In this document: positions 3,084 to 13,359 of the stretch, piece after piece
Layout of the letters: each line of letters starts with the position of its first letter
How positions within the stretch are numbered: the stretch's first letter is position 1
Assembly (NCBI GenBank): GCA_900754755.1
Contig: CAAEEC010000050.1
Coordinates: 1-13,526, forward strand
Direction: 5' to 3'
DNA: 13,526 bases
DNA from: Clostridia bacterium
GTDB lineage: Bacteria > Bacillota > Clostridia > Christensenellales > Aristaeellaceae
Program-made: the position numbers and the translations under genes
The notes under the pieces: model-generated
Database searches by the model: none
The model's input: the letters and a program-made list of their open reading frames with translations, nothing else
What the model was told of the DNA's origin: nothing

Positions 3084-3365
3084 TACTTTTTGTTGCCGTA
3101 AATGAAAAAAATCATTAAGTAAAAGGTGGCGTATTGTTCGATTAAAATTGTTAAACACAATAGTGATACAGTGAAAATTTTGCCGCAACATGTTATAAAG
3201 TTATTATAATAAATACAATCTGCTCCTTTTGAGGAAGTTATGGCGATGGGCGCAGCTGCCTTCACTCAGATGGCAACGACACTTTTTCCGCGGTCGCACG
3301 GTGGGGAATCCCTTCTAAAATTTACATATTATTTTCAAAATGGCTGCTGCAAAAGCGGGAGGAAC
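3084..3365. other. AT-rich spacer upstream of the copper operon
   Basis: No independent gene is seen. The segment contains an inverted repeat ATTGT-TAAAC-ACAAT (3147-3161) that could be a regulator site. A plus-strand TATAAT (3205-3210) has only a poor -35 at 19 nt (TTGCCG, 3180-3185). A GAGGAAG (3231-3237) is placed 8 nt before an ATG at 3246 that is in frame with copA, so a longer CopA form is possible but not preferred. From about 3240 the sequence becomes less AT-rich and leads into the copper operator. Confidence 0.4.
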
Positions 3366-3401
3366 GGGTATACTATTGCTATAGATACCCCACCCCGGTA
3401 T
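3366..3401 (+). promoter_or_regulatory. copA promoter with CsoR-type operator
   Basis: The 17-nt element ATACCCCACCCCGGTAT (3385-3401) is an inverted repeat, ATACC-7-GGTAT, of the G/C-rich kind bound by CsoR repressors. A further GGGTAT (3366-3371) forms an outer inverted repeat with ATACCC (3385-3390). An extended -10 (TG-C-TATAGA, 3377-3385) abuts the operator, and TATACT (3369-3374) is an alternative -10; neither has a good -35. CsoR bound here would block initiation, and Cu(I) would release it. csoR is the second gene of the same operon, which supports autoregulation. Confidence 0.6.
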
Positions 3402-3412
3402 TGTATGCAGAG

Positions 3413-3418
3413 AGGAGG
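3413..3418 (+). promoter_or_regulatory. Ribosome binding site that fixes the copA start
   Basis: AGGAGG lies 7 nt upstream of ATG 3426. The nearer ATG at 3421 is out of frame. This, with the operator at 3385-3401 lying just before it, favours 3426 over the upstream in-frame ATGs at 3240 and 3246. Confidence 0.8.
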
Positions 3419-3425
3419 AAATGCA

Positions 3426-6059
3426 ATGCAAGAACGGCAGGAAAAATATGATGTCACAGGGATGACATGCGCCGCTTGTTCGTCTCGTGTGGAAAAATGT
3501 GTGAGCGCATTGCCTGGTATGGAGCAGGTTACGGTAAATTTGCTCAAAAACAGCATGGTCGTGAAGTATGATTCCAGTGTTTTGAACAGCGATGGCATCG
3601 TCGCCGCCGTGGAACAGGCGGGATATGGCGCGGCTTTGCAGGCGGACGCCCATACGTCTGTTGCAAAAAAGACGGCCGCTGAGGGGAGTGCGGTGGATCG
3701 CGCAAAGCGGGAATATGAGGCCATGCGGCACCGTGTCATCGGTTCGTTCATTTTTACGATTCCATTGTTCTACTTATCCATGGGACATATGATGGGCTGG
3801 CCCCTGCCGGGGATTTTTCTGGGCGATGCGAACGCGCTCATTTATGCGTTTACCCAATTTCTTTTGCTTTTGCCCGTGATGCTCATCAACAACAAGTATT
3901 TCCGCATGGGATTTAAAACCCTGTTCCATGGTTCGCCCAACATGGATTCGTTGATTGCGCTGGGTTCCAGTGCGTCGGCGCTCTATGGGATTTATGCGCT
4001 ATATAAGATTGCGTTTGGCATGGGCCACGGCGACCTTGCCATGGTGAAGCAATTTTCTCACGATTTGTACTTTGAAGGCGCGGGCACGATCCTGACGCTG
4101 ATCACTTTGGGCAAATTCTTTGAGGCGCGCGCCAAGGGCCGCACTTCCGACGCGATCAACCGCCTGCTGAACCTCGCGCCAAAGACGGCCTGCGTGCTGC
4201 GCGATGGCGTGGAAACGGTCATCCCGGCGGAAGAAATTGTGCGAGGCGATGTGCTCGTCGTGCGCGCGGGGGAATCAGTTCCCGTGGATGGCACCATTCT
4301 GGACGGCAACGCTTCCATCGATGAATCCGCCATCACGGGCGAAAGCATCCCGGTGGATAAACAGACCGGCGATAAAGTCATCGGCGCCACCATCAACAAG
4401 AGCGGATATTTTCAGATGCGCGCCGACAAGGTGGGCGATGAAACCGCCTTGGCGCAGATCATCCGTTTGGTGGACGAGGCCACCAGTTCCAAGGCGCCCA
4501 TCGCCAAGTTGGCGGACAAAGTGGCGGGCATTTTCGTGCCCGTGGTCATTGCCATCGCCCTGGTGGCGGCCGTTGCCTGGCTGATCGCTGGCGCGGGGGT
4601 GGAATTTGCCCTGTCCATTGGCGTTTCTGTGTTGGTTGTTTCCTGCCCTTGCGCGCTCGGACTGGCTACGCCCACGGCCATCATGGTCGGCACGGGGCGC
4701 GGCGCGGCCAACGGTATATTGATCAAATCGGCCGAAGCGCTGGAAAGTGCCCATTCCATTCAAACTGTGGTGCTCGACAAAACCGGCACCATTACCATGG
4801 GGCAGCCCGTACTGACCGATGTTTTCCATGCCGCTGATATGCCGGAAAAGACGCTCTTGCAGATGGCGGCTTCTTTGGAAAAGCTTTCGGAGCACCCGCT
4901 GGGCAAGGCGATTGTGGAAGCGGCTGAGACACAAAAAATCCCTCTGCTCCCGGTGAGCGATTTTCAGCAGATTCCTGGCCAGGGCATTCGGGGCAAGATT
5001 GACGGCCAAGTTTGCCTGGCGGGCAATCAAAAGCTGATGGAAGCTTCTGGCATTGATCACCATGTGCTGGATGAATGGCAAAATACAATGGCCGATGCGG
5101 GAAAAACGCCGCTGTTCTTCGCCGCCGGCGGACGGCTTGTGGGCATGGTGGCTGTGGCGGATGTGGTGAAACCCACCAGCAAGCAGGCCATTGACGAACT
5201 GAAATCCCTCGGTATCGAAGTTGTGATGCTCACGGGCGACCACCAAAAGACCGCGCACGCCATTGCTCGCCAAGTCGGCGCGGATCGGGTGATCGCTGAG
5301 GTGTTGCCGCAGGACAAAGAACGCGAAATCCGTCAGATCCAGCAGAGCGGCAAAAAGGTGGCGATGGTGGGCGATGGTATCAACGACGCGCCCGCGCTGG
5401 CCCGCGCGGATGTGGGCATCGCCATTGGCGCGGGAACGGATGTGGCCATGGAATCTGCGGATATTGTGCTGATGAAAAACGATTTGCTGGACGTCGCTTC
5501 TGCCATAGAACTGAGCAAGGCCACCATTCGCAACATCAAGCAAAATCTGTTCTGGGCGTTTTTCTACAACGCGATTTGCATTCCAGTGGCAGCCGGCTGC
5601 TTTTACGCCGCGCTCCAGTTGAAGATGAATCCCATGATCGCCGCGCTCGCTATGAGCTTTAGCTCCGTGTTCGTGGTGAGCAACGCCCTGCGGTTGCGCT
5701 TTTTCAAACCCAGCCGCGTGGCTGCGAAGGCAGGGGAAGCCTCTGCCACAACCCATTCGTTGCATGTGGAAGAAATTCCTTTGCTGCAACCGGAAGCCGC
5801 ACCGGTAAATGCGGCGCAAGACAAATTGGAGGAGGTTCAAACCATGAAGAAGGAAATTTTGGTGGAAGGCATGATGTGCCAGAACTGCGTAAAGCATGTG
5901 ACCAAGGCGCTTACGGGCGTGGAAGGTGTTTCGGATGTGCGCGTGAGCCTGGAAGAGAAAAAGGCTTTTGTGGAAGCCGCTCCCTCGGTGAGCGATGCCG
6001 CGCTCAAAGCCGCCGTTGAAGATGCGGGCTATACTGTGACGGGTGTGGCCAACGCATGA
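3426..6059 (+). CDS. copA: Cu+-exporting P1B-type ATPase with N- and C-terminal metal domains
   Basis: Integral membrane pump that exports Cu(I) at the expense of ATP (877 aa from ATG 3426). It shows an N-terminal HMA domain with GMTCAAC (Cys15/Cys18), the actuator TGES (304-307), the transport motif Cys407-Pro-Cys409, the phosphorylated Asp451 in DKTGT, the P1B-specific His490-Pro491, and the hinge GDGIND (649-654). Eight hydrophobic segments are visible. Tyr714-Asn715 in the seventh and M743-S-F-S-S in the eighth are the Cu(I)-specific signatures. After the last helix comes a flexible Ala/Glu-rich linker, then a second HMA domain with Cys818-Gln-Asn-Cys821. One HMA at each end is unusual; most bacterial CopAs carry one or two at the N-terminus. 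The last domain has its own internal ribosome binding site (see 5844). csoR overlaps the stop codon. Confidence 0.96.
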   Translation: MQERQEKYDVTGMTCAACSSRVEKCVSALPGMEQVTVNLLKNSMVVKYDSSVLNSDGIVAAVEQAGYGAALQADAHTSVAKKTAAEGSAVDRAKREYEAMRHRVIGSFIFTIPLFYLSMGHMMGWPLPGIFLGDANALIYAFTQFLLLLPVMLINNKYFRMGFKTLFHGSPNMDSLIALGSSASALYGIYALYKIAFGMGHGDLAMVKQFSHDLYFEGAGTILTLITLGKFFEARAKGRTSDAINRLLNLAPKTACVLRDGVETVIPAEEIVRGDVLVVRAGESVPVDGTILDGNASIDESAITGESIPVDKQTGDKVIGATINKSGYFQMRADKVGDETALAQIIRLVDEATSSKAPIAKLADKVAGIFVPVVIAIALVAAVAWLIAGAGVEFALSIGVSVLVVSCPCALGLATPTAIMVGTGRGAANGILIKSAEALESAHSIQTVVLDKTGTITMGQPVLTDVFHAADMPEKTLLQMAASLEKLSEHPLGKAIVEAAETQKIPLLPVSDFQQIPGQGIRGKIDGQVCLAGNQKLMEASGIDHHVLDEWQNTMADAGKTPLFFAAGGRLVGMVAVADVVKPTSKQAIDELKSLGIEVVMLTGDHQKTAHAIARQVGADRVIAEVLPQDKEREIRQIQQSGKKVAMVGDGINDAPALARADVGIAIGAGTDVAMESADIVLMKNDLLDVASAIELSKATIRNIKQNLFWAFFYNAICIPVAAGCFYAALQLKMNPMIAALAMSFSSVFVVSNALRLRFFKPSRVAAKAGEASATTHSLHVEEIPLLQPEAAPVNAAQDKLEEVQTMKKEILVEGMMCQNCVKHVTKALTGVEGVSDVRVSLEEKKAFVEAAPSVSDAALKAAVEDAGYTVTGVANA
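5828..5846 (+). promoter_or_regulatory. Internal ribosome binding site and start codon within copA
   Basis: GGAGGAGG (5828-5835) lies 8 nt upstream of an in-frame ATG (5844-5846) inside copA. It falls exactly at the junction between the linker and the C-terminal HMA domain. A site this strong and well spaced at a domain border is unlikely to be coincidental; it is either functional or a relic of a formerly separate gene. Confidence 0.6.
5844..6059 (+). CDS. copZ: Nested CopZ-like copper chaperone (internal start)
   Basis: Translation from the internal ATG would give a 71-residue soluble protein, the usual length of CopZ-type chaperones, which carry Cu(I) in the cytoplasm and hand it to CopA or CsoR. 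It contains a complete beta-alpha-beta-beta-alpha-beta ferredoxin-like HMA fold with the metal loop MMCQNC and a terminal AGYTV motif. It shares frame and stop codon with copA, so the same segment is both the C-terminal domain of the pump and, possibly, a free chaperone. In E. coli a free chaperone is also made from copA, but by ribosomal frameshifting at the 5' end. Whether the internal start is used here is inferred from the ribosome binding site only. Confidence 0.5.
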   Translation: MKKEILVEGMMCQNCVKHVTKALTGVEGVSDVRVSLEEKKAFVEAAPSVSDAALKAAVEDAGYTVTGVANA

Positions 6060-6319
6060 AAGCCGATCCAGCAACCATAACCCGCCAGCTCAAAATTGCG
6101 CGCGGACAGTTGGACGGCATTTTGCGGATGGTGGAAGAAGACCGCTATTGCGTGGATATCTCCAACCAGATTCTGGCGACGCAAGCCTTGTTGAAGCGCA
6201 TCAACAAAGAAATTTTGGAAGCGCACATTCGCCATTGCGTGCGGGAAGGGCTGCATTCTGACGATCCCAACCCCAAGCTGGAAGAAGCGCTTTCCCTGTT
6301 GGAGAAGATGATGTCCTAA
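6056..6319 (+). CDS. csoR: CsoR-family copper-sensing repressor
   Basis: Small all-alpha DNA-binding protein (87 aa) that represses copper-export genes and lets go when it binds Cu(I). The family pattern is clear: RQLKIARGQLDGILRMVEED, then RYCVDI and HIRHC. The copper ligands Cys32, His57 and Cys61 have the same spacing (25 and 29 residues) as the C-H-C triad of characterised CsoRs, which separates it from formaldehyde-sensing FrmR and nickel-sensing RcnR relatives. The ATG overlaps the copA stop by 4 nt (ATGA) and has no strong ribosome binding site of its own, so it is probably translationally coupled to copA. Its likely operator is at 3385-3401, making the operon self-regulating. Confidence 0.95.
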   Translation: MKADPATITRQLKIARGQLDGILRMVEEDRYCVDISNQILATQALLKRINKEILEAHIRHCVREGLHSDDPNPKLEEALSLLEKMMS

Positions 6320-6421: not shown

Positions 6422-7888
6422 TTATGCCCACAGATCAGCGATTTTTTGCAACAGCACTTCGACGAGAAGATCGCCGCTCGCCGCGCCGCACAAGGTGGAA
6501 GCGGGCGCGCTGGAATACGATCCGCCTTCAATGGCAGCCTGGGTGGGAAGATAGCCTAAGCTGCTGTCGGTGAGCTGTGCCACCACCGTTTGCCGGGAAA
6601 CGGCACGCGCCTTGATGCGCAGAGAGTATTCCACAAACAGTTCAAAGGGGCAAGTTACCAGCGCCATGCCGCCAATGCGCAACGCGTGGAGGGGAGTGGG
6701 CGCTGTTTCTGTTTTATTCTGTAGATGCCAGCGGCCAATGACGCCCATGGGCTCAAAAATGGCCACCAAATCGCTCCCTTTCATGGGATTCTGCGCGGAA
6801 AAGCGCGCCTTTGCCTGTTCCACCACCGCCAGGGCCTGCTCGTATTCTTGCTGAGAGACCTTGCGGATGGGCAAGGAGAGCACGTCCGCGTCGTGCCGGA
6901 AAATGGGCTGGGTATCGATGTGGTTGCGCGCTTTGCGCAAGCCGCGCTTTACAGCGTCGGCAATGCGGCTGGCAATATCCTGGCATTCTTCCGCCATATC
7001 GATGTTGCGCCACACTTCGCCGGCCTGCGCGCCCCAGGCTTCTAGCTCGCGGGCGTTGTATTTGCTGATGCGCGTGAGGTCGAGGGGATTTTGATCGCCA
7101 GCGGCTCCGCATAGCGGCAAAACGAACACATTTCCCAGCGTTTCTCGCAACGCTTGCCGGGTGTAGTGCCAGTAATCCGCAGAAATAAACGAGTGCAATT
7201 CAAACACCTGCGAAGGGCAGGGAATGCACACGGCGACGCCGGTCAGGCGGCCATCTGGCGACCAGGTATACAGCATATCCGCGCTATGATCCGATCCCGC
7301 TTCGTAGCGCTTGAAATCGCTCCGGGCGCACACGCCATACATGCGGGTTTCGCTCTTGCCATCGCGCTCAAAAACGGGACGGCGGTTGAAGGCGATTGCT
7401 GCATAATCCGTTGCGGAACTGATGCCGCCGCGTTCCCGGCGATTCCAGGCTTCTGACGCCACCTGCACCAGCCGGTTGACCAAAAAATCGTCAAATTCTT
7501 CGCCTTGAAGTAGGTTTTCCGGCAAGTCAGGCAGAGCGATGCGCTCCTTGCCCAACACGGCGAGCGCGCTTTCATCGAAAATGTAGGGCGCTCTGCTCAC
7601 AGAAGTGTGCGTATGCGTGGCAAATGCGCTTAGATTTTGCGGATCAAAGCCCGCCAGTTCGGCTGCCAGTTGTTTGCGAACCCGATCCATAAGGGGCTTC
7701 CCGGGAACGCTCGTGATGTCCATGGAGAGAAGAATGGCCTGGCTATCGCCGGATTCCAGCGCTAGGGCGGTGGCGGTTACCGGGTCGTGTACATATTGGG
7801 AAACGCGGGGATAGATCTGGCCGCTGTGGAAGACGGGGCGATCGGGCGTGATGCTGGTTTGGGCCCAACCAATTTTGATATCCGGCAT
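6422..7888 (-). CDS. Neutral/alkaline ceramidase-like protein
   Basis: A 488-residue protein resembling the N-terminal catalytic domain of neutral (non-lysosomal) ceramidases, zinc amidases that split ceramide. Matching landmarks are an opening GWAQTSITPDRPV, HDP (34-36), THTHTS (91-96) at the place of the ceramidase HTHSGPGG zinc loop, CGAAGDQNP (260-268) at the place of GDVSPN, PFE (414-416), and GYLPTQAAIEGGSY (445-458) at the place of the family's Tyr-containing motif. It has no signal peptide and no C-terminal Ig-like domain, so it is shorter than classical ceramidases and probably cytoplasmic. The start at 7888 has an AGGAGGAG ribosome binding site (7896-7903) that overlaps the stop of the upstream glycosidase gene, 13 nt away, so the two form an operon. 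The substrate is unknown; the family also contains proteins with unproven activity. Confidence 0.75.
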   Translation of the reverse strand: MPDIKIGWAQTSITPDRPVFHSGQIYPRVSQYVHDPVTATALALESGDSQAILLSMDITSVPGKPLMDRVRKQLAAELAGFDPQNLSAFATHTHTSVSRAPYIFDESALAVLGKERIALPDLPENLLQGEEFDDFLVNRLVQVASEAWNRRERGGISSATDYAAIAFNRRPVFERDGKSETRMYGVCARSDFKRYEAGSDHSADMLYTWSPDGRLTGVAVCIPCPSQVFELHSFISADYWHYTRQALRETLGNVFVLPLCGAAGDQNPLDLTRISKYNARELEAWGAQAGEVWRNIDMAEECQDIASRIADAVKRGLRKARNHIDTQPIFRHDADVLSLPIRKVSQQEYEQALAVVEQAKARFSAQNPMKGSDLVAIFEPMGVIGRWHLQNKTETAPTPLHALRIGGMALVTCPFELFVEYSLRIKARAVSRQTVVAQLTDSSLGYLPTQAAIEGGSYSSAPASTLCGAASGDLLVEVLLQKIADLWA

Positions 7889-8780
7889 ATTGAATCTCCT
7901 CCTATTTTTGCATTTGCCTAAGCTCGATATATAGCGTTGTATAGCGGTCCTTTTTGCGTTGTATGGTGAATGCGTCGCCGTGGAATGTCTCAGCCGAGAC
8001 GCTTTCAAAGGTGTTTTCGCGATCGATGCAATAGACCGTGGCTTGGATTCCGTGTGGGTTGACCAAGCCGGAAACGTGGATGCGCACCGCGGGATCTTCC
8101 GCGCAATAGCTGGAAAGCAGGATGCCGCCACTTGTTCCATCGCTGGCGGCGCATACGCGCACATCTGGGCAATTCGAGGCGGAATACACTTCATTTTGCA
8201 ATTGGTATAGCGCGTTCCAGGCTTTTAGGGCATAAAATGTTTTGGTGGGCTGCGCGGTTTCGTGCGTGAAAATGCCGCAATAGCACATGGCGGGTTGCGC
8301 GTCATAGTAGTGGGCGAGGTCGACTTCATTGTGTTGCATTACGCACAGCGCGCCGGAGGCGAGCGCGGCGCCAACTTCGGTGGCCATGGTATACATCATG
8401 TTGTCCCCACTGTAGTTCCACTCATCCAGAATGCTCATTGCGCTTTCCAGATGATATTTTTGCAGCAACCCGCGGGCGTATCGGGCAAACGATTCGTATA
8501 GGTACAAATCCCCGGAATAGATGTGCCAGGAAAAGAAATCCAGGGGCGCTTGAATTTGCGGAGACGTGATATAAGCAAAAAAATCGTCGGCAAATTCCAG
8601 AAACTTGCGTTGGTCCGGCGTGGGATTTTGGCAGAATGCTCCATAAAATCCGCAACTGGCGTAGCCGCCCACTTTGATATAGGGGAAGCAAATTTTCAGG
8701 TGTTTGGCCGTGGTGGCATATAGATTGAAGTATTCTTCGTTGCTGCCCACCCACATGGCTTTGGGCCAGGGGCCTGCGCC

Positions 8781-8795
8781 TTAGGGCTAGTTTCA
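8781..8795 (-). other. Cluster of three nonsense codons in the GH39 active-site motif
   Basis: On the minus strand the codons are TGA (8795-8793), AAC, TAG (8789-8787), CCC, TAA (8783-8781). One substitution in each restores TGG, GAG and GAA, giving W-N-E-P-E, the GH39 acid/base motif. All three changes fall within 11 bp, while the other 447 codons of the gene are open. Confidence 0.9.
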
Positions 8796-9221
8796 AATTT
8801 CCCAATATTGGATGTTATAGTGGAAGCCATTCGCCCAGCCCTCGTTGTAGTGGCGAATGATTCCCTCGCAGATGCGCGCCCATTTTTGCGCGTCTTTGGG
8901 CGCATAGACGTTTCTTTTCAAGGGCGCGTGCTCAATTGATACGCCCAAGCGATAGAATACTTGCGTGCCACAATCGCAAATGGCCTGGATGTATAGATCG
9001 GTTAGCGCGAAATCGTAGCTGGAGGGATCGGCAGGATCTCGGTCGAAATCCTTGAAAATGCAAGGAACATCCACAAAATGGCCGCTTCCATAGGGATATT
9101 CCGTATCGTGGAGGCGGGAATATGGAATACCGGCCTCCTTGAAGTACTGCGATGTGTTTAGCACAAATCCATAGGTAAGCGGCCCGTTGTTTACACCGTG
9201 TAACGGGCGAATGGTTCCGAT

Positions 9222-9235
9222 ATTTTTCGAAAAAT
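9222..9235. repeat. TTTCGAAA palindrome, site 1 (inside the GH39 gene start)
   Basis: ATTTTTCGAAAAAT is a perfect 14-bp palindrome within codons for DFSKN near the 5' end of the glycosidase gene. It contains the core TTTCGAAA (9225-9232), found again at 9353 and 9620. Coding constraint could explain part of it. Confidence 0.4.
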
Positions 9236-9308
9236 CGATAGAAATATCGTTCATTGCGGTTGCCTCCCTTTTTTGACGCAAAGACGTTTGTGGGAAATCA
9301 CAGCTACA

Positions 9309-9337
9309 ATTTTAGCAGCACACGAAGGAAATGTCAA
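9309..9337 (-). promoter_or_regulatory. Promoter of the glycosidase/ceramidase-like operon
   Basis: On the minus strand: TTGACA (9337-9332), a 17-nt spacer, and TAAAAT (9314-9309). The -35 is perfect and the spacing ideal. The transcript would begin near 9302, with a leader of about 48 nt before ATG 9254. A palindrome (9351-9362) lies just upstream of the -35. Confidence 0.8.
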
Positions 9338-9350
9338 TGCGCTTTCGTTG

Positions 9351-9362
9351 AATTTCGAAATT
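9351..9362. promoter_or_regulatory. TTTCGAAA palindrome, site 2 (candidate operator)
   Basis: AATTTCGAAATT is a perfect 12-bp palindrome 13 bp upstream of the minus-strand -35 box. It shares TTTCGAAAT with the site at 9620-9628 near the divergent promoter. It could bind a LacI-, ROK- or similar sugar-responsive regulator; no regulator gene is in the window. Confidence 0.45.
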
Positions 9363-9566
9363 ATCGGCACAAAAAGTTGGAGGAATTTTGTGGGGTGTTT
9401 GCTGTGAAATGTCCAGATCGGCGGGGAAGATAAGTGATATTAAACCTATATCGCGGCGCGATAATTGGTATAAAATATCTATAAAATTTATATTTGAATA
9501 GAATGAAATAGAAATTTATAAGCGATTTTCGAGGCTGCGCTGTGCGGTCAAATGGAGAATGCGTGG
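9363..9566. other. AT-rich middle of the divergent regulatory region
   Basis: No gene is seen. Minus-strand open frames here lack ribosome binding sites and have low-complexity content. The notable element is a perfect 15-nt palindrome TATCGCG-G-CGCGATA (9449-9463), standing out in very AT-rich surroundings (9464-9525). It could be another regulator site. Confidence 0.4.
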
Positions 9567-9595
9567 TTGACATTGGCGCGGGAATATGGTATAGT
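9567..9595 (+). promoter_or_regulatory. Promoter of the sugar isomerase/kinase operon
   Basis: TTGACA (9567-9572), a 17-nt spacer, and TATAGT (9590-9595): a near-consensus sigma-A promoter. Transcription should start near 9602, giving a leader of about 74 nt before ATG 9676. The palindrome at 9620-9627 lies about 18-25 nt into the transcript, where a repressor could block elongation. Confidence 0.8.
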
Positions 9596-9619
9596 AATGG
9601 CATGATACGACTCGTGTAG

Positions 9620-9628
9620 TTTCGAAAT
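9620..9628. promoter_or_regulatory. TTTCGAAA palindrome, site 3 (candidate operator)
   Basis: TTTCGAAAT shortly downstream of the predicted transcript start of the sugar operon repeats the core of the site at 9351-9362. An odd palindrome ACGA-C-TCGT (9607-9615) lies next to it. Confidence 0.45.
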
Positions 9629-9675
9629 ATATTTTGTGAGGCGTGGATGACTGAGGAAAGGATGGAGAAACGAGA

Positions 9676-11082
9676 ATGGCTGAAAATTGCAATTTGCATC
9701 CACAGGCAGAAATGGGTACGCGGCAAATGGGAAACGTAGGTTTTGTGTGTTTTGGAGAGGTGAACACGCCATTTGAACGCTTGCAAATCAAGCACGACGC
9801 GGCGCTCAAATCTTTGCGAACGCTTGCGGCAAATTTTGTGGATGGCGGGATTGTGATCGATGACCCCGCTTATGAGACGGCGGACAAGGCGATTGCCTTA
9901 TTGAAAGCCGAGCAGTTTGATTCGCTGATTCTGTGCGTGGCGGGTTGGGTTCCTACGCATGCGGTGATCCGCGTGGCAGACGAATTCCGCTCGCTCCCCA
10001 TGGTGCTGTGGGGCCTTTGCGGCTGGCGCGAGGGCGATAGAATTGTGACCACGGCCGAGCAGGCCGGTACGTCTGCGCTTCGTCCCGCGTTGGAAGCGAT
10101 GGACTATACCTTTAAATATGTGTATAACGTGATCGATGAGCCGGAACCTCTGGAGGCGATTGACACCTACATTCGTGCGGCTTTTGCGGCAAAGCGGTTG
10201 CGCCATGCTCGTGTGGGAACGATGGGCTACCGCGATATGCTGCTGTATGGCACGCAATATGAGGGCAATTCCATGCGCGGGCAACTGGGCGTGGAAGTGG
10301 AGCCATTTGAAATGCTGGAAATGGTGCGGGAAGCGGAAGCGCTTTCTGCCCAGGAAGTTGCGCAAGTGGTGAGCGATATGCGCAGCCAATGGACGATTCT
10401 TAAGCCGTGTGCGGATTCCGTGCTGGAAAAAGGAGCGCGCTATGCTTTGGCCCTTGCGAAACGGGTGCGGGAGCGCGGGTATGACGCGGTTACGCTCATC
10501 GATGTCGACGGTATGAAGAAGCTCTTGGGCTTTCCGCCTGCGATTGTATTTATGCTGCTGGAGCGCTCTTGCGGGGTTTGCACCACGCCGGAAAACGATG
10601 TGATGGGCAATGTAACGCAGCTAATGGTGCGCTATTTGACCGGGCAAGTGGCGCATTATATGGAGTACTATGAGTATTTCAAAGAGAGCATGCTCATCGG
10701 CGTTCCGGATTATATCCCCATTCCGGCGATTGAGGGAAATGTGGAATTGCTGCCCACGGCTTTTGGCCTGCTGGACGCTTCTTTGCTCAATGTCAGCAAG
10801 GTGAAAACGGGCTATGTCACCTGCGCGCGGCTGTATTACAAAAAGGGCCGGTATTATATGCATATCTACACTGGAGAAGCCAAGCAGCCGCCCAAGTGGG
10901 AAGAATATGGCTGGGCGCCTCCTGCGCCGCAGCTGCCAAGTCTGGAAGTCTTCCCCGATTCCTGCACGGTGCCAGAGTTTGCGCAGCGGGTATCCAGCCA
11001 GCACGTAATTGTGTGCTACGGGAACGAGGTGCAGGCGCTCAAAGAACTGTGCGGCCTATTGGACATTGCGGTGGTATACTGA
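9676..11082 (+). CDS. L-fucose/L-arabinose isomerase-like protein
   Basis: A 468-residue protein of the FucI/AraA-like sugar isomerase fold; these Mn-dependent cytoplasmic enzymes interconvert an aldose and its ketose. Typical features are the opening MGNVGFVCFGEVNTPFE, a segment LILCVAGWVPTHAVIRVADE, TMGYRDMLLYGTQYEGN, and CGVCTTPENDVMGNVTQLMV, where Glu306 and Asp308 fit metal-ligand positions of the family. GGAG 8 nt upstream supports ATG 9676; ATGs at 9712 and 9727 lie nearer the conserved start but have weaker sites. It is first in an operon with a sugar kinase 22 nt downstream, which supports the isomerase role. The substrate is not evident: it is a divergent member, shorter than classical FucI (about 590 aa), and could act on a pentose, a deoxyhexose or something else. 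Confidence 0.8.
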   Translation: MAENCNLHPQAEMGTRQMGNVGFVCFGEVNTPFERLQIKHDAALKSLRTLAANFVDGGIVIDDPAYETADKAIALLKAEQFDSLILCVAGWVPTHAVIRVADEFRSLPMVLWGLCGWREGDRIVTTAEQAGTSALRPALEAMDYTFKYVYNVIDEPEPLEAIDTYIRAAFAAKRLRHARVGTMGYRDMLLYGTQYEGNSMRGQLGVEVEPFEMLEMVREAEALSAQEVAQVVSDMRSQWTILKPCADSVLEKGARYALALAKRVRERGYDAVTLIDVDGMKKLLGFPPAIVFMLLERSCGVCTTPENDVMGNVTQLMVRYLTGQVAHYMEYYEYFKESMLIGVPDYIPIPAIEGNVELLPTAFGLLDASLLNVSKVKTGYVTCARLYYKKGRYYMHIYTGEAKQPPKWEEYGWAPPAPQLPSLEVFPDSCTVPEFAQRVSSQHVIVCYGNEVQALKELCGLLDIAVVY

Positions 11083-11104
11083 CCGGCAGTGAGGAAGGTG
11101 GCGC

Positions 11105-12619
11105 ATGAAATACCTATTGGGGGTAGACGCTGGAACGACGGCTTTTAAGGCGGCGCTCTTTAACGAAGATAAGCGTTTGATTTGCGTTGAGCAGCGGGAT
11201 TATACGCTTTTGACGCCCAGCGAAAACATTGTGGAATTTCCCGCGGAGGAGTATTGGCGCATTTTTTGCGAACTGATTCAAGCGTTGCTGGCCCAGTCCG
11301 GCATATGCGCGGAGCAGATCGCCGCCCTCGCCATCAGCAGTCAGGGGGAAACCTTGTTTTGCTTGGACTCCGCCGGGCAGCCGCAGGGCAATGGAATCGT
11401 GTGGTTGGATAACCGCGCCTTCTTGGAGGCTGACCAACTGAGAGAGCGGTTTGGCCGCCGGGCGGTATATGAAAAGACCGGCCAGGCGGATATGACGGCC
11501 ACATGGCCCGCGGCAAAAATCCTTTGGCTGCGGAAAAACCGCCCACAGGAATTTGCGCGCACGCACAAATTCCTGCTGCTGGAAGACTATTTGCTGTATC
11601 GCCTCACGGGGAGATACGTTGGCGAACCCAACTTGTGGGCGTCGTCCGCTATGTTGGACATTCACACCGCGCGTTGGTGGCCGGAAATGTTGGAAACGCT
11701 CGGCCTGGACGCGCAAAGGTTGCCTGAAATCCTGCCCTGCGGCTCGGCGGTGGGATGCGTTACGGCGCGGGCGGCGCGTGAAACGGGATTGCCGCCATCG
11801 GTGCTCGTTGCAATGGGCGCGCTGGATCAAACGTGCAACGCCATTGGTTGCGGCATGACGCGACCGGGCGTCGTTTGCGAGACGACGGGTTCTTGCCTGG
11901 CGGTTAGCGCGGTGATGGATGGTTTTATTCCTTACGATCCGGATCTGCCCATTACCTGCCAGAACCATGCGGTCGCTGGGCGGTATACGGTGCTGTTGTG
12001 GTCGCAATCCGCGGGGATGACGCTAAAATGGTTTGCCGCAAAGTTTTATCCGGATGTGCCAGAACTGGAGGCTGCCTTCCAGCGGATGGACGCGGAAGCA
12101 GAGCGGATTCCGCTGGGCTGCGCTGGGCTGACGATGCTGCCACACCTTACGGGGGCTGCGCACCCGGAATATGACGCGTATGCCAGAGGCGTTTTTTCTG
12201 GCATCACGCTGGAACATGGCCGCGCGCATTTTGCGCGCGCCATAATGGAAGCGGTCGCGTGCATGTTGCGCCGGAATCTGGAAAGCTTGCCCATAGACGC
12301 GCGGCGGATATATTGCCTGGGCGGCGGCGCCAATAGCAGAGTATGGCTGCAAATCAAAGCCGATATTGCGCAGCGCGAAATGCAGCCGGTGCGCGCGCGG
12401 GAAAGCGCTTGCCTGGGCGCGGCGATTCTCGCAGGGGTTGGCGCGGGAATTTTCGCAGGCGTGGATTGGGTAGCGGAGGATAGAGAAAAGGAAGCGGTAT
12501 TCGTTCCGGATTTCTCGCTGCGCCCAATGGCGGATGAAACATACCGGCGCTATATCGCGCTGTATGGCGCGCTGCAGCAGATGTTCCGCAAAAACGCTCG
12601 GGAAATGGATGCCAAATAG
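11105..12619 (+). CDS. FGGY-family sugar kinase (xylulokinase-like)
   Basis: A 504-residue cytoplasmic ATP-dependent carbohydrate kinase, length normal for xylulo- and related kinases. It has the phosphate-binding DAGTT (8-12), IVWLDNRA, the FGGY region TWPAAKILWL, GALDQ with probable catalytic base Asp241, a TTGSC segment, and the adenine-site GGGANSRVWLQIKAD starting at Gly406. AGGAAGG 6 nt upstream supports ATG 11105, and only 22 nt separate it from the isomerase gene, so it most likely phosphorylates the ketose made by that enzyme. The substrate within the FGGY family (xylulose, ribulose, fuculose, erythritol and others) cannot be told from motifs alone. Confidence 0.9.
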   Translation: MKYLLGVDAGTTAFKAALFNEDKRLICVEQRDYTLLTPSENIVEFPAEEYWRIFCELIQALLAQSGICAEQIAALAISSQGETLFCLDSAGQPQGNGIVWLDNRAFLEADQLRERFGRRAVYEKTGQADMTATWPAAKILWLRKNRPQEFARTHKFLLLEDYLLYRLTGRYVGEPNLWASSAMLDIHTARWWPEMLETLGLDAQRLPEILPCGSAVGCVTARAARETGLPPSVLVAMGALDQTCNAIGCGMTRPGVVCETTGSCLAVSAVMDGFIPYDPDLPITCQNHAVAGRYTVLLWSQSAGMTLKWFAAKFYPDVPELEAAFQRMDAEAERIPLGCAGLTMLPHLTGAAHPEYDAYARGVFSGITLEHGRAHFARAIMEAVACMLRRNLESLPIDARRIYCLGGGANSRVWLQIKADIAQREMQPVRARESACLGAAILAGVGAGIFAGVDWVAEDREKEAVFVPDFSLRPMADETYRRYIALYGALQQMFRKNAREMDAK

Positions 12620-12631
12620 GATGGGCAAGCG

Positions 12632-12648
12632 AGGAGGGAAAGAGATTG
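12632..12648 (+). promoter_or_regulatory. Ribosome binding site and TTG start of the TIM-like gene
   Basis: GGAGGG (12632-12637) lies 8 nt upstream of TTG 12646. No ATG is suitably placed, and the protein's conserved N-terminal PPFFEVGPK follows directly, so TTG is the likely start. Confidence 0.75.
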
Positions 12649-13359
12649 CACAATTTGCAAAGAAAGATCGCCCCGCCCTTTTTTGAGGTGGGCCCCAAGG
12701 CATATCTCTATGGCAAGGAAGCGCTTGCCTTGGCGCAGGACGCTTTGCGCGCTTCGCAGGAGACGGGCGTTTCCGTGATCTATACGCCGCAGCTTACGGA
12801 TTTGCGGTTGATCGCGGAAAATGTGCATGGGCTATATTTGTGCGCACAGCACATGGATCCCATCGCGCCGGGCAAGGGACAGGGCAGCATATTGGCGGAA
12901 GCGCTTAAGGACGCTGGCGCGGATTGCGCGATGCTGAACCACGCGGAAAGACCGATGACGCTGAACGCGCTGGTGCGTTCGGTGGAGCGGGCGCGGGAAG
13001 TCGGGCTGCTGAGCGTGGTTTGCGCGGATTCGTGCAAAGAAGCGGCGATGCTGGCGATGTTGGCGCCGGACATTCTCGTGGTGGAACCCACGGAATTGAT
13101 CGGCACGGGCGTGACGAGCGACGAAGCTTTGGTGCGCGCCTCCACAGAGGCGGTAAAAGCGGTGAATCCGGAGATTCAGGTGCTTCAGGGCGCGGGCATT
13201 TCCTCGCCGGACGACGTGTATAGAACCATTTTTGCTGGAGCCGACGCCACGGGTTCTTCCAGCGCCATTTGCAAGGCGGAACAGCCAGGAAAAATGCTGA
13301 AGGATATGTTGCTGGCCTGCCGGCAGGCGTATGAGGATCGCATGGCAAAGCGCGACTGA
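12646..13359 (+). CDS. Triosephosphate isomerase-like protein (archaeal-type)
   Basis: A 237-residue (beta/alpha)8 protein of the short, archaeal-like triosephosphate isomerase branch. The expected catalytic residues are all visible: Lys18 in FFEVGPKAYLYG, His99 in NHAERP and Glu147 in VEPTELIGTG, with phosphate-binding GTG and QGAGISSPDDV segments. It starts at TTG 12646 with GGAGGG 8 nt upstream, 26 nt after the kinase stop. Glycolytic TPI normally sits with gap/pgk genes; here it follows a sugar isomerase and kinase. I therefore infer it isomerises a phosphorylated sugar of this pathway, as TIM-like EryH does for tetrulose phosphate in erythritol breakdown, although ordinary TPI activity is possible. 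Confidence 0.85.
   Translation: MHNLQRKIAPPFFEVGPKAYLYGKEALALAQDALRASQETGVSVIYTPQLTDLRLIAENVHGLYLCAQHMDPIAPGKGQGSILAEALKDAGADCAMLNHAERPMTLNALVRSVERAREVGLLSVVCADSCKEAAMLAMLAPDILVVEPTELIGTGVTSDEALVRASTEAVKAVNPEIQVLQGAGISSPDDVYRTIFAGADATGSSSAICKAEQPGKMLKDMLLACRQAYEDRMAKRD

Follow-up and report, generated by a model that had tools for sequence, protein, structure and literature searches.

The three stop codons that interrupt a GH39-like glycosidase gene in the window, by which we mean the whole stretch of 13,526 nucleotides analysed here, probably stem from several wrong bases close together in the assembly, and the real gene would then be intact. We regard an error as the most likely origin because a public protein 97% identical to the encoded product is intact and because all of the damage falls within about 30 bases. 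Caution is called for when an assembled contig shows three stops that look like a designed "catalytic knockout"; in the present case, alignment with a single close relative shows that the mismatches extend further than the stops, in the way that a local error in the sequence would be expected to produce.

The stop codons and the mismatch run around them

From 8795 to 8781 the minus strand carries the in-frame triplets TGA-AAC-TAG-CCC-TAA, of which the plus strand has the reverse complement, within a frame that opens with an ATG at 9254 and closes with its own stop at 7902 (Table 1). The gene has no internal stop beyond these three, and its gapless alignment with P0002, an intact 450-residue protein that is the nearest public match at 97% identity, reveals no frameshift. 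The sequence, the frame and the P0002 alignment thus bear out the initial annotation, which had described three in-frame stops in an otherwise intact GH39 gene, as well as its claim that single substitutions separate them from sense codons, since each stop is one base change away from the codon inferred for P0002. P0002 represents a cluster of 136 member sequences and the comparison is with the representative's protein only; base changes are accordingly those inferred from protein, and silent changes fall outside the comparison.

Table 1. Coordinates of the gene, its altered segment and its neighbours in the window
Feature	Position	Strand	Remarks
GH39-like glycosidase gene	7902..9254	-	450 codons, three in-frame stops in the record; PF01229
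Three stops	TGA 8795-8793, TAG 8789-8787, TAA 8783-8781	-	Read from the sequence
Six inferred single-base differences from P0002	8764..8793	-	30 bases; every second codon, 154-164
N-terminal part, residues 1-153	8796..9254	-	Identical to P0002 in the protein comparison
Neighbouring hydrolase gene	6422..7888	-	Closest public relative P0122, with 2 differences in 488 residues
L-fucose/arabinose-isomerase-like gene, divergent neighbour	9676..11082	+	Closest public relative P0242, with 2 differences in 468 residues

The window's protein differs from P0002 at 12 of the 449 residues compared, and also at the last residue, which lies outside the local alignment. Half of the 12 differences fall at residues 154, 156, 158, 160, 162 and 164, three of them nonsense and three missense; the remaining six are dispersed between residues 188 and 446. 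Each of the clustered changes involves one base, with spacings of 4, 6, 7, 5 and 7 bases. The missense changes at residues 160, 162 and 164 follow directly downstream of the stops as far as base 8764 and had no part in the annotation's description. By alignment, the middle stop (residue 156) corresponds to Glu160 of XynB (PDB 1px8), which is named as the acid/base in the title of a reference cited in PMC6887791 and as an active-site residue in the available text of PMC6933502. Hence, of the claim that the stops sit exactly in the catalytic motif, the coincidence of the middle stop with the acid/base column stands, while the word "exactly" is weakened, because the mismatches with P0002 run on beyond the motif.

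The clustering of the changed residues is not a matter of chance, since random placement of 12 differences brought six within 11 residues in only 2 of 200,000 trials. With the missense changes left out, three of nine differences fell within five residues in 2,893 of 200,000 trials, before counting that all three are stops; by position the stops alone are therefore less extreme than the six-change cluster, and their positional clustering is modest. Two of the three stops fall in columns conserved in 119 and 120 of the best 120 relatives. Residues 160-164 belong to a loop that is gapped in 84-91 of 120 relatives per column (the best 120 of 5988), and for this reason the three missense changes may, as far as the alignment indicates, be separate natural differences of an ordinary kind. 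Speaking against ordinary variation, the residues that the window has at 160, 162 and 164 are found in 1, 0 and 0 of the best 120 relatives, respectively. As a control for natural clustering, the window's ClpC was compared with a 95% identical relative (L098), and at most 5 of 38 differences fell within 11 residues; some clustering thus occurs among natural differences too.

The changed codons are strictly every second one from 154 to 164, an arrangement with a chance of 1 in 126 (six of 11 codons, both ends changed), and random miscalls give no explanation for this spacing. We also observed that every other difference from P0002, seven in all when the last residue is counted, is located downstream of the cluster (7905-8693), with none upstream. 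For the six of these inside the local alignment such an arrangement has a chance of 0.076. It may mark a strain or recombination boundary, and on account of it strain mixture may have contributed to the record.

Conservation among relatives and the genomic setting

With X placed at the stops, the product scores 35.9 bits against the GH39 model PF01229, above the cut-off of 26, as compared to 48.8 bits for P0002; taken as separate pieces, the C-terminal part scores 23.8 bits, below the cut-off, and the N-terminal part has no match. In this record a stop codon occupies the place of the acid/base glutamate of the WNEP segment. A candidate for the catalytic nucleophile is Glu277 of P0001 (278 when the Met is counted), which does not vary among 15 sequences; the phmmer match to XynB stops at residue 206, short of this site. 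Of 5988 protein relatives, the best 120 all have the acid/base glutamate, and 119 of them have the preceding tryptophan. Three residues of the window outside the motif deviate from columns conserved at 85% or more, and in P0002 these three deviate as well. The initial annotation had proposed to see whether close relatives are intact at the stop codons: P0002 is, and the glutamate stands in every one of the 120 homologues listed.

Because protein databases contain open frames only, a DNA-level search was added. A tblastn search with P0002 over 97 loci yielded 112 matches across residues 154-158, all 112 with the glutamate and none with a stop at these residues; two of the 112 had stops inside the alignment, at query residues 448 and 432, near the gene end. 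The 97 loci are not independent cases, since they include one gene twice (L001 and L081) and several paralogues in some genomes. When 200 genomes of the family to which G001 (the genome with L001) belongs were searched with stops tolerated, 86 gave a match, and in the 27 listed places with E below 1e-50 no stops were seen. The genome with the closest ClpC (G054, 95%) among 60 genomes of the G001 family had no match to P0002, and a DNA search of it returned only one match, of 34 bases. Against the nearest genome locus (L001, 68% protein identity), codons 154-164 are identical at 22 of 33 bases. This comparison does not single out the stretch, as 58 of the first 200 11-codon windows sort lower; the cluster is invisible at such a distance, and the case therefore rests on P0002.

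The GH39 gene adjoins a ceramidase-like hydrolase gene, and opposite to them are an isomerase-like gene, an FGGY kinase gene and a triose-phosphate-isomerase-like gene. The hydrolase is neutral-ceramidase-like only through the PF04734 label on some of its homologues, and has no Pfam match of its own. P0242, the relative of the isomerase, scores 48 bits against a sulfoquinovose isomerase model, far below the cut-off of 700. The same five kinds of genes occur together in 2 of the 97 GH39-bearing loci (L006 and L009), and in at least 7 of the 97 one or more additional relatives of window genes are present with E 1e-30 or better, these counts of co-occurrence being lower bounds because many loci are short. 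This setting suggests that 6422-13359 is a carbohydrate-use cluster, of which an intact enzyme would be an ordinary member. One of the two loci, on a contig of an Oscillospiraceae MAG (L009:4551-11522), has five tandem GH39 relatives beside ceramidase-like, FGGY kinase, isomerase and TIM-like genes. Elsewhere in the window (3240-6319) there is a P-type ATPase with two heavy-metal-associated domain matches, presumably of the copper type to judge from its domain make-up, whose gene has a 4-base overlap with a PF02583 (metal-sensitive repressor domain) gene. No RNA family reached the gathering threshold in the window.

In the ClpC part of the window we found four departures, all conservative, from columns conserved at 90% or more in 30 loci. 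As far as this part and the two neighbouring proteins listed in Table 1 show, the record looks clean elsewhere.

A probable local sequence error and its alternatives

The close relative intact at the affected codons and the restriction of the mismatches to a short stretch are the features by which a local error would be recognized, and assembly error is the best supported of the options that the initial annotation had listed. The source was probably a metagenome contig assembled from short reads, and a single read, of poor quality or alone in covering the place, could have set the consensus over about 30 bases. The missense changes would belong to the same event as the stops, and its cause would be miscalling or assembly rather than real mutation; the organism's real gene would most likely encode an ordinary GH39-family glycosidase, intact and part of a cluster for sugar use. 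Several miscalls at a place thinly covered by short reads would explain why the changes are confined, why there are no indels, why the relative is intact and why no other decay is seen. Since the rest of the contig seems accurate, a local dip in coverage has to be assumed, which weighs against this explanation. Local errors of assembly are characterised in the accessible text of PMC10582259 by low coverage and by features of SNP clusters.

Five of the six inferred changes are transversions and four of the six are A/C or G/T swaps, which are given as the most frequent HiSeq substitutions in the available portion of PMC3334598. All six either belong to the A/C-G/T class or repeat the preceding plus-strand base, with a chance of 0.02 under uniform alternatives; on the minus strand the same rule holds for five of the six. 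This argument from error classes is a weak one, as it was chosen after seeing the data. Contexts ending in GG are described as error-prone in what is available of PMC4787001, and GGC and GGT alone as poor predictors of errors in the corresponding part of PMC3622629. As, on the plus strand, such a context stands directly before just one of the six sites (8771), and GGC and GGT predict poorly, we claim no specific error context. Among the papers listed by a literature search on base errors in metagenome assemblies, none was a directly matching case.

A recent and real null allele, produced by one multi-base event such as error-prone repair, template switching or micro-conversion with no time for subsequent decay, is rather unlikely; a natural allele in which that single event rewrote as many as six codons at the catalytic loop and left the rest untouched, we consider unlikely. 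Such an event would also yield a tight cluster in an otherwise intact gene, and a real multi-base mutation would look identical in one consensus sequence. The placement of the seven other differences, as a possible recombination or strain boundary, agrees with it weakly, given the chance obtained above for six of them, and the missense half of the cluster is possibly ordinary variation, which would leave three changes to account for. Against a null allele, the window holds no donor, the longest exact match spanning a changed base being 9 bases on either strand; the DNA fold of 8745-8815 is unremarkable (z-score 0.98); and the broken motif recurs in none of the 120 proteins or 112 DNA matches. 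If true, such an allele would illustrate cleanly how one multi-base mutation can inactivate an enzyme in a single step.

That the record was edited or otherwise deliberately altered is very unlikely. The strict alternation of the changed codons and the loss of the catalytic glutamate would fit such a design, but half of the changes are missense and outside the motif, where they are superfluous for a knockout, and we found no positive evidence of editing. The deliberate or selected inactivation that the annotation had entertained gains no positive support.

Recoding, in which the three stops would be read through by an alternative code or programmed readthrough, is barely conceivable: the frame is open and conserved on both sides, but a recoded gene would be expected to have an in-frame stop of one type conserved in its relatives, whereas here there are three different types, so that the earlier argument against a single suppressor tRNA stands, and a stop at residues 154-158 in 0 of 112 DNA-level matches. 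The adjacent missense changes would also be left unexplained; no tRNA was found in the window, which says little. Ordinary pseudogene decay is just as improbable, for apart from three stops in one gene there is no sign of it in the comparisons made: no other disabling change was found in the gene, the damage lies within about 30 of 1,353 bases, with no frameshift or other stop, and the conserved columns lost outside the motif are those that P0002 has lost too, which upholds the annotation's case against decay.

Comparison with characterised enzymes and known assembly errors

When P0002 is aligned with the GH39 enzyme XynB of T. saccharolyticum (PDB 1px8/1uhv), the WNEP segments of the two coincide, the acid/base position included. 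Unlike this and other GH39 references such as XynB1 of G. stearothermophilus (PDB 2bs9), the present record has stops at the acid/base and at two nearby codons. The P0002 group is distant from the characterised enzymes, its best PDB match being 5z3k, a "glucosidase" (E 9.4e-29), which has a glutamine at the acid/base column. According to the available text of PMC6933502, CmGH1 is an active GH39 enzyme whose two catalytic positions are occupied by Gln157 and Tyr264, and from the residue numbering we infer that 5z3k is CmGH1. This indicates that the glutamate is not universal in the wider GH39 family.

When set beside the clustered substitution errors known from short-read assemblies, such as context-specific Illumina errors, the probable error proposed here differs in that only one of six sites follows GG on the plus strand, and in its every-second-codon spacing, which is absent from the accessible parts of the descriptions in PMC3334598 and PMC10582259. 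It resembles the errors described in those parts in being a tight run of substitutions with no indels and clean surroundings, in which four of six changes are A/C or G/T swaps.
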